Assembly (NCBI GenBank): GCA_938074335.1
Contig: CALJEL010000116.1
Location: 1 to 34,585 of the forward strand
DNA length: 34,585 bases
Source of the DNA: an uncultured bacterium
Lineage (GTDB): Bacteria > Nitrospirota > Thermodesulfovibrionia > Thermodesulfovibrionales > CALJEL01
Reading direction: 5' to 3'
The notes beneath the pieces are model-generated. The model was not told the origin of the DNA, searched no databases, and was given only the letters and a program-made list of their open reading frames with translations. Shown piece by piece: positions 14,207-23,202 of the stretch (its first letter is position 1; every line of letters starts with the position of its first letter). The position numbers and the translations under genes are program-made.

Positions 14207-14238
14207 GCCTGTTTACTGTATAGTCTTTTTACCTTAAT

Positions 14239-14431
14239 CTGCCGATAGCAATGGCAGGGGATGCCGAAAAGGCTTTATCGCGACACCTTAATGTAAGATT
14301 TTTAATAACATTACCGAACATTTCTTACTTCACCTTTTGGTGAAAAACTGTTTAATACATGATAAATAAAAATTTGTCGCATTATAAAGGCTTTGAGGCA
14401 TCCCCTGCCATTAAAAATGCATTTCTATCAG
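14239..14431. mobile_element. Copy B of MITE-like element with long terminal inverted repeats
   Basis: Left CTGCCGATAGCAATGGCAGGGGATGCCgaaaAGGCTTTATcgCGACA; right end reverse complement CTGATAGAAATGCATTTTTAATGGCAGGGGATGCCtcaaAGCCTTTATAATGCGACA. Confidence 0.75.
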
Positions 14432-14433
14432 TT

Positions 14434-14460
14434 GTAGGGGCAATTTAGAATTGCCCCTAC
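14434..14460. repeat. Perfect GTAGGGGCAATT/AATTGCCCCTAC palindrome overlapping the hemC stop codon
   Basis: GTAGGGGCAATT tag AATTGCCCCTAC: 12-bp stem, 3-nt loop. Confidence 0.85.
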
Positions 14461-20740: not shown

Positions 20741-21841
20741 TCAATATATTTTAATTATATTATAAAAGCTGTCCCTTTCTGCAGGTATCCTGCCAGCATT
20801 TCTTATCAGATCAATAATTTCTTCTACTGATAAGGCCTGTGGGGTGGTTACACCTGCTTCATGGGATATCTTTTCCTCCGTAACTGTTCCCTCAAGGTCA
20901 TCAGCACCCCACAGAAGTGCTATTTGTGCAACCCTTTCACCAAGCATTACCCAGTATGCCTTTATGTGATCAAAATTATCAAGCACAATTCTGCTTATTG
21001 CAATTGTCTTGAGGTCATCAATGGTACTTCTTTTATTCTCATTCCCGATATAAGGTAGCGGAATAAAGGCCTGAAATCCTCCTGTCCTGTCCTGAAGGTC
21101 TCTGAGCCTCAGTAGATGATCTATCCTGTGCTCAGGACCTTCCAGATGACCATAAAGCATGGTTGCGTTTGACCTTATACCCATACTGTGGGCAATCTCC
21201 ATTATCTCAAGCCATCTTCTGGATGATATCTTTTCGGGACAGAGGATCCCTCTTACCTTTTCATCAAATATTTCTGCACCACCACCTGGTATGAGGTCAA
21301 GACCTTTTTCTTTCAGTATTTCCAGGACCCTTTGAATTGAAAGGCCTGATATCCTTGAGAAATGGTCCAGTTCAGTGGCAGTATAGGCCTTTATTTTAAT
21401 AAAGGGGAAGGCCTCCTTTATGGAGGAGATGATGTTTACATAATGCTCAAATCTCCACTCAGGGTGAAGACCTCCAACAATATGCACCTCTTGAAAACCC
21501 TTACCTTCTGATAGATGGGAGCTTATCTTATTGAGAATTTGCTCAATAGTAAGTTCAAAGACACCAGGGTCACCTTTTGAGCGACTGAAGGCACAGAACC
21601 GGCATCTATTTATACAAAGGTTTGTGGGATTTATGTGCAAATTTTTAATAAAAAAGGCATAATTACCATTTTTCGACAGGGCCACCTCACTGGCAAGCCT
21701 TCCAAGGTTGAAAAACTCCTCATCCCTCCAGAGACTCAGGGCATCCTCTCTGGAGATCCTCCTTACAGTAACTCCAGAAGGCCCTTTGATCTTTGGGGCA
21801 TTACCATGCTGGATTCCAGCTTTATTAATTGATAAAGACAT
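20741..21841 (-). CDS. mqnE: Aminofutalosine synthase-like radical SAM enzyme (menaquinone futalosine pathway)
   Basis: CINRCRFCAFSR radical SAM cluster, HIVGGLHPEW, GAEIFDEKVRGILCPEKISS, LEGTVTEEKISHEAG. Start placed at MSLSINK. Confidence 0.85.
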   Translation of the reverse strand: MSLSINKAGIQHGNAPKIKGPSGVTVRRISREDALSLWRDEEFFNLGRLASEVALSKNGNYAFFIKNLHINPTNLCINRCRFCAFSRSKGDPGVFELTIEQILNKISSHLSEGKGFQEVHIVGGLHPEWRFEHYVNIISSIKEAFPFIKIKAYTATELDHFSRISGLSIQRVLEILKEKGLDLIPGGGAEIFDEKVRGILCPEKISSRRWLEIMEIAHSMGIRSNATMLYGHLEGPEHRIDHLLRLRDLQDRTGGFQAFIPLPYIGNENKRSTIDDLKTIAISRIVLDNFDHIKAYWVMLGERVAQIALLWGADDLEGTVTEEKISHEAGVTTPQALSVEEIIDLIRNAGRIPAERDSFYNIIKIY

Positions 21842-21869
21842 AAAAAAATTATAACATGAATAACAACTT

Positions 21870-21893
21870 GGTGCGACAGAGCGACAGTGCGAC
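21870..21893. repeat. Short octamer array GGTGCGAC AGAGCGAC AGTGCGAC
   Basis: Three tandem 8-nt units upstream of mqnE. Confidence 0.75.
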
Positions 21894-21910
21894 CGTTTCA
21901 CCCCTCAATT

Positions 21911-22263
21911 TGCCGATAGAAATGCATTTTCATCGGGGTTCACGGGGTGAAGCTTGTCTTCACCCCGTGCTCTAATGGCGGGGTATGCCTCAAAGCCTTT
22001 TTAGACCAGCAGAGCAGTAGTGCAGTAGAGCAGTAGTTTTTATTGATAGAGCAGTAGACCAGCAGAGCAGTAGTTTTTATTAAGGAATTTTTTTAAATTA
22101 ATATTTAACTGCTGCGCTGTTGCTCTGCTGCTCTACTGCTCTGTTATTGCCTGCTGCTCTACTGCTCTATTAAGGTGTCGCGAGCGGGGTCCCCAGAAAA
22201 TCGTCAGATTTTCTGGGGTGCTGATATTGCCTTTTTCGGCAGCCCCGACCATTCCTATCGGCA
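21911..22263. mobile_element. Copy C of MITE-like element with octamer-array core and two embedded hairpins
   Basis: Terminal TGCCGATAG (21911) / CTATCGGCA (22255-22263); internal AATGGCGGGGTATGCCTCAAAGCCTTT and TTAAGGTGTCGCGA...GCCTTTTTCGGCA match copies A and B. Confidence 0.75.
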
Positions 22264-22284
22264 GTTTAGGGTAATGGCTTATAC

Positions 22285-22443: not shown

Positions 22444-23194
22444 ATGGCGGTAGTAACTATGAAAGAGCTTCTTGAGGCTGGTGTCCATTTCGGGCATCAG
22501 GTAAAGAGATGGAATCCAAAGATGAAAAAATACATCTTTGGAGAGAGAAATGGTATCCACATAATAGACCTTCAGAAAACTGTCAAGGCTGTTGAAGAGG
22601 CCTACGAGTTTATAAAATCAGTTACACAGCAGGGCGCTCCTGTTCTATTTGTTGGAACAAAAAAACAGGCGCAGGAGGCAATTGAGGAGGAGGCAAAGAG
22701 GGCTGGAGCTTTTTATGTGAATCAGAGATGGCTTGGAGGAATGCTCACTAATTTTTCCACTATCCAGAGGAGTATACAGAAGCTCAGAAGATTTGAAAGG
22801 ATGAAGGAAGATGGCACCTTTGAAAGGTTACCAAAGAAAGAGGTTGCCGGGATAATAAAGGAGATGGAAAGACTTCAGAAGTACCTTAATGGTATTAAAG
22901 ATATGGATAGACTTCCAGGAGCAGTGTTTGTGGTTGATCCCAAGAAGGAAAAGATTGCTGTTCATGAGGCAAGGCTCCTTGGCATCCCTGTTGTTGCAAT
23001 TGTGGATACAAACTGCGATCCTGATGAGGCAGATTATGTTATCCCGGGTAATGATGATGCCATAAGGACAATAAAGCTTCTTACTTCAAAAATAGCAGAT
23101 GCTGTTATTGATGGAAAGGCATCACTTGAGAAGGTGGCTCAGGAAGCTGCTGAGGTGGCAGCCATTGAAGAAAAGGTCATGATGGAGGAAGAAA

Positions 23195-23202
<8 letters not shown>
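22444..23202 (+). CDS. rpsB: 30S ribosomal protein S2
   Basis: [44 protein letters not shown] aggagg. Confidence 0.98.

Follow-up and report, generated by a model that had tools for sequence, protein, structure and literature searches.

A modular MITE-like element upstream of rpsB carries hairpin modules and an inverted octamer array that also lies in frame in protein genes of Thermodesulfovibrionales

What is the palindrome-rich stretch that has rpsB (22444-23202) on one side and an MqnC/CofH-type radical SAM gene (20741-21901, minus strand) on the other in a 34,585-nucleotide piece of a Thermodesulfovibrionales draft genome (the window), and where did its parts come from? The reading that we consider probable is that of a MITE whose interior gained dispersed palindromes, with an octamer array that is itself a separate, order-wide element tolerated in frame within genes.

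The original prediction, a MITE-like element upstream of rpsB, had been bounded by the ends TGCCGATAG (21911-21919) and CTATCGGCA (22255-22263). Both sequences are present, but each forms part of a 17-bp terminal inverted repeat that extends further out, so 21903-22271 (369 bp, no strand assigned) gives the better limits of the element. Its B end, CCTCAATTTGCCGATAG, occupies 21903-21919 on the plus strand, and its A end, the reverse complement of CCCTAAACTGCCGATAG, occupies 22255-22271 on the minus strand, with CTATCGGCAGTTTAGGG as the extended form of the right end. Subterminal inverted repeats lie at 21974-21997 on the B side (plus strand, AATGGCGGGGTATGCCTCAAAGCC), a feature also found in plain 197-bp copies, and at 22229-22253 on the A side (minus strand), as delimited by copy comparison. 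The two perfect hairpins are where they had been placed, each with 12-bp arms: hairpin 1 (CACGGGGTGAAG-cttgt-CTTCACCCCGTG, 21941-21969) has a 5-nt loop and hairpin 2 (CCCCAGAAAATC-gtca-GATTTTCTGGGG, 22191-22218) a 4-nt loop. The inverted octamer-array core, put earlier at about 22005-22170, is found at 22002-22169 (no strand assigned), with a left arm (22002-22073), an AT-rich centre and a right arm (22109-22169). With at most one mismatch allowed, AGAGCAGTAG matches the window 10 times where 2.2 matches are expected; nine of the 10 fall in the element, and no shuffle reaches 10 matches. As single-stranded DNA, the element has a predicted folding energy of -89.6 kcal/mol (z = -11.6), and 0 of 100 shuffles are equally stable. 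A second, plainer copy without hairpins or octamers is found at 14232-14432 (plus strand, end coordinate approximate) and is presumably the 'copy B' with which the original prediction compared this element. The B end of this plainer copy abuts, and at about 14425-14460 runs into, a GTAGGGGC palindrome, a kind linked to RAYT transposases.

Within its own 2.22-Mb draft genome, the element returns 216 BLAST matches. The A end CTGCCGATAGVAATGGC has about 60 close sites in this genome versus 11 for the reversed pattern, and the B end TTTGCYGATAGAAATGCATTT likewise about 60 (58) versus one; the ends are therefore not unique to the window. At least 31 copies carry both 17-bp ends, CCCTAAACTGCCGATAG and CCTCAATTTGCYGATAG, a count that is a lower bound since copies were taken as extracted stretches. 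These paired copies are 53-532 bp long, below the ~600 bp usual for MITEs, and have no coding capacity. In 21 of the 31, direct repeats of 5 bp or more flank the copy, mostly 5-8 bp and mainly 6 bp long (TGGACA, AGATCC, ACAGGAC and ACCATAAT are examples), whereas shuffled flank partners give a mean of 1.2 such copies and never more than six. This excess of target duplications is a signature of transposition and, together with the shared ends, upholds the assignment as MITE-like. The window copy itself has no recognisable target duplication, and its left flank is a GTGCGACA-type short array (21871-21895, plus strand) seen directly in the sequence. The copy set would fit a non-autonomous terminal-inverted-repeat element that is, or formerly was, moved by a transposase making ~6-bp target duplications.

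The copies differ by discrete modules. The plainest, of 197 bp (for example L142, L159 and L161), consist of the ends, the subterminal inverted repeat and a common core, and nothing more. Compared with these, some copies carry hairpin 1 as a clean 42-bp addition at port 1, between GCCATTA and AAAATGCATTT (21931-21972 in the window, plus strand), and others carry it as a ~45-bp addition at port 2, between GATGCCGA and AAAGGC. The two ports are never both filled, so that a copy has hairpin 1 at one fixed position, at the other, or not at all. L189 shows the edges of both ports, joined by one hairpin with everything between them deleted; in L004 the hairpin was assigned to port 1 by reading. Hairpin 2 is either absent or at a third port, where it replaces TTTATC (22182-22228 in the window, plus strand, edges approximate), as seen from filled and empty copies and from its stand-alone occurrence in other genomes. 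The core takes the plain form, an octamer array or a GTGCGACA-type array. In L179, a complete second element of a TGCCATTAG-ended type, with ~130 sites in the genome, is nested in the octamer core, and further copies contain CACAGACAAGAATGTCTGTG or GTAGGGGC palindromes. Arrays of GTGCGACA 8-mers and CTGTTTGAA 9-mers are also seen in core position or flanking the element (window 21871-21895, L152, L178, L191).

Beyond this genome, a search across 177 genomes of the order gives matches in 11 and leads to a related element (L371) in G001, the sister species within the genus, where a hairpin-2 type palindrome lies at the matching place. The exact hairpin-1 palindrome has no match in other GTDB genomes. 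Hairpin 2 is also present outside the element, in other families of the order, where a paired change turns AGAAAATC/GATTTTCT into AAAAAATC/GATTTTTT. It lies in frame in RecJ (L070), there inside an octamer array, in a 559-aa putative CobQ gene (L041) and in two more open frames.

Module gain and loss between copies is thus observed directly, and hairpins occupy three ports across the 31 copies. The original prediction went further, reading the nested palindromes as repeated insertion of hairpin-forming units into an existing element. The gain and loss of units stands; the insertion chemistry does not follow from it, as the hairpin modules leave no clear target duplication (at most ~1 bp is possible). 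The element interior may have acted as a landing place for hairpin 1 at two ports and hairpin 2 at one, while an inverted array of degenerate octamers would have replaced the original core; both the mechanism of each step and the order of insertions are what we infer from the copies. The hairpin modules could also have passed from copy to copy by recombination or template switching. Small size, lack of coding capacity, inverted ends, high copy number and optional internal pieces are shared with the modular MITEs Correia/NEMIS (PMC2229807) and BOX of pneumococcus (PMC3049150), and with BrickBuilt of Porphyromonas gingivalis, in which a tandem array of 23-nt direct repeats lies within a MITE that is always intergenic (PMC4596501). 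Unlike in those MITEs, several separate palindromes here enter at fixed ports, and the array is found in genes as well, outside the MITE; unlike that of BrickBuilt, it is inverted and built of 8-nt units.

The octamer array is a separate dispersed element of the order and the most interesting part of the find. Its unit, AGAGCAGY, occurs in inverted arrays that also stand alone outside the MITE. The octamer pattern matches the home genome about 90 times on both strands, with 0 matches for the reversed-pattern control. Inverted arrays are found in 21 of the 177 genomes of the order, the home genome included, in several families and with a near-zero reversed-pattern control; two of the 21 (G144, G051) have single matches that are possibly due to chance. 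Across all of GTDB, the pattern also picks up common tandem repeats with all units in one direction, in many phyla. Arrays inverted around a short AT-rich centre are found, among the matches listed, mainly in Nitrospirae/Thermodesulfovibrionales records and in one of Nitrospinota. The centre motif TAAGGAA/TTCCTTA is common to 10 of 66 arrays from relatives, versus 0.9 expected, which suggests descent from one dispersed element.

Many of these arrays reside within protein genes. Of the 66 distinct arrays from relatives that were read, long open frames span 38. Random insertion of the same arrays into genes would leave the frame open in only ~6-7% of cases, so the observed share is far from chance; random intervals of the same loci are spanned by frames in 88%, which indicates that the loci are gene-dense and nothing more. 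Independent events number fewer than 38, because several cases are orthologues. By reading, 13 of the in-frame arrays are internal to proteins and the other 25 are N-terminal or precede the N-terminus; about five of these 25 probably lie ahead of the true start. With Pfam used on the array-bearing proteins, internal arrays include those in the EPSP synthase AroA, HisF, MqnC, a fused CbiG-CobJ (two arrays) and a P-type ATPase, and further in glycerate kinase, CbiD, a CoA-activase-like protein, MurE and RecJ. AroA aligns over its full length to the solved structure 3rmt, with the array opposite a 21-residue gap, and HisF has 67 extra residues, array included, between residues 136 and 138 of HisF-LUCA (4evz).

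The N-terminal arrays include those of LptD (two genomes), the D-Ala-D-Ala carboxypeptidase DacA (two records), a PilQ-like secretin, an M16 peptidase, an outer membrane efflux protein and several proteins with a lipobox-like cysteine (lipoproteins). By eye, these N-termini consist of a basic or polar stretch from the left arm and a hydrophobic stretch from the right arm, followed by A-x-A or cysteine. Judged from this composition, array-derived N-termini may act as signal peptides.

Residence in frame is also seen in the home genome, in an N-acetylmuramoyl-L-alanine amidase of the cell wall (L331) and a glycerate kinase (L340); 22 of 29 arrays from loci of this genome lie without any open frame. 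The glycerate kinase (L340, G000:C31) is ~94% identical to one with the same in-frame array in another family (L231, G053:C5), which suggests recent transfer or contamination.

The arithmetic of the unit accounts for the fit to any frame. Because 8 is not a multiple of 3, all three frames are passed within 24 nt and every frame is readable: a AGAGCAGC run gives permutations of RAAEQQSS in every frame, and the complementary arm gives permutations of the hydrophobic AALLLCCS. Units ending in T (AGAGCAGT) produce TAG stops. All of this is a consequence of the genetic code. A frame-neutral array of this kind would be tolerated in genes, whether it forms a loop in a conserved enzyme or a signal-peptide-like start whose hydrophobic stretch comes from the right arm, and such tolerance would be the reason for its survival there.

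Homologous loops hold different arrays in different species. The CobJ loop after VFE-x-LK contains an octamer array in G014, and elsewhere 7-mers (ATGCGTT, ACGCATC or AGCCATC) or TTCACCGA 8-mers, with a significant 7- or 8-nt period in 9 of 11 sequences tested. A period of 7 or 8 nt is likewise significant in the MqnC loop after PGNTEL in six of eight tested, and several more genomes have other palindromes in this loop. In AroA, an array of GGGGTCAA 8-mers in G014 takes the place of the octamers of G159. A search for simple empty sites within genes of related genomes found none; the homologous loops mostly hold other repeats. In-frame palindromes of CCCCCCC...GGGGGGG and GGGGACTGTCCC type also sit in the same loops (L323, MqnC of G033; L348, AroA of G098), and other MqnC loci with such palindromes are L306, L316, L308 and L311.

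These loops may be sites that readily accept incoming arrays, or the arrays may be changing in place. It is conceivable, somewhat short of an even chance, that mobile inverted arrays of 7- or 8-nt units repeatedly colonise the same enzyme loops, with other units in each species, and supply signal peptides, and that the window array is one such array captured by a MITE. A rather unlikely alternative is that the arrays are not mobile at all, grow, shrink and change by replication slippage and hairpin-associated template switching, and reach new sites only through recombination between similar arrays. The number of units does differ in every copy, and the presence of different 7- or 8-mers at the same MqnC, CobJ and AroA site in different species is what such local change would leave. 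Against it, a single unit recurs at many loci, both inside genera and across them, and the shared centre motif, more frequent than expected, suggests descent from one dispersed element.

Several components of the probable reading, a MITE with dispersed palindromes inside it, are known already: a MITE with a tandem array, modular MITEs, in-frame palindromes and a MITE-derived signal peptide. Palindromic repeats in frame in conserved protein genes are represented by the Rickettsia palindromic elements (RPEs) and by YPAL/RU-2 of Yersinia, one element of which forms part of a predicted signal peptide (PMC2229807, PMC2759123). The octamer array, palindromic and in frame in conserved protein genes, works likewise; the likeness is one of mode, and membership of the RPEs is not claimed. 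Unlike RPE and YPAL, it is a degenerate 8-nt array with no fixed 100-150 bp sequence, belongs to another host lineage, frequently provides signal-peptide-like starts and has different arrays in its place in homologous loops of different species. The STRR heptamer repeats of cyanobacteria (Vioque 1997, as cited in PMC4748335) and the TAACTGA repeats of Beggiatoaceae (PMC4679880) likewise consist of short tandem arrays with units of 7-8 nt that are scattered through the genome and in some cases lie within functional genes. The octamers share with STRRs the dispersal of short tandem arrays of a fixed small unit, here the 8-nt AGAGCAGY rather than the 7-nt cyanobacterial unit. They differ from both in their inverted arms, their AT-rich centre, the many different units found within one order and their long residence in coding frames.

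The literature searched, mostly outside subscription papers, contained nothing relevant on this repeat class in Nitrospirota. Within that literature we did not find the combination described here, a frame-neutral 8-nt unit, frequent signal-peptide-like starts or same-site turnover. Selfish palindromes that lie in frame have been described chiefly in Rickettsia and Wolbachia; the present arrays would be a second, unrelated case from another lineage. With a unit arithmetic that explains the any-frame fit and with frequent signal-peptide-like starts, such a case would open the gain of protein loops and targeting signals from repeats to direct test. In MqnC, CobJ and AroA, the same-site, different-array pattern allows repeat turnover in coding sequence to be followed as a natural experiment.

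The original prediction also pointed to a TnpA-REP/Y1-type nuclease as a possible mover, and this idea fared poorly. It is improbable that Y1 transposases (RAYT) move the hairpins as REPs and that the element is a REP cluster. The hairpins are small, perfect, in some cases within genes and nested in other repeats, and the genome does encode two Y1 transposases. However, one Y1 gene is flanked by its own palindrome, CCTGCACCTACGAGGTGCGG, and the other lies beside CACAGACA palindromes; none of 30 Y1 loci in relatives carries hairpin 1, hairpin 2 or octamers, many being flanked by GGGACACATCCC-like palindromes instead. In none of the loci examined does a palindrome of the element flank a Y1 gene, as in a REPtron, and the whole element has terminal inverted repeats and target duplications, both absent from REPs. 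The hairpins resemble the GTAG/CGTC REPs with RAYT transposases (PMC3733652) as small, dispersed and partly intragenic structures, and differ from them in having no linked Y1 gene in the loci examined. A search for one other family, DDE_Tnp_1, found no such transposase gene in the home genome, and no autonomous copy with the element ends was found. One Y1 transposase domain, accompanied by CACAGACA-type palindromes, lies in frame within a 1393-aa open frame (L031, G000:C61:12256-15534) that looks like a type II restriction-modification enzyme.

It is very improbable that the element is instead a conserved, non-mobile structure that serves rpsB or the adjacent radical SAM gene as a regulator or terminator: the predicted fold is strong and the site lies between two genes, but copies of the element occupy dozens of unrelated sites across the genome and an Rfam search of the window gives no match. 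We claim no role in rpsB expression. Plasmid and phage searches with the element likewise give no match. An assembly artefact, suggested by a draft of 116 contigs, many of which end in these repeats, is scarcely credible given the many contig-internal copies with unique flanks and matching target duplications and the presence of hairpin 2 in a single-contig genome (G012). The home genome also contains a second, commoner family of ~200-bp elements with ends TGCCATTAGAAAW and ~130 sites; the element nested in the octamer array of L179 belongs to it, and examples lie at G000:C17:4843-5048, C47:40354-40560 and C87:5976-6181.
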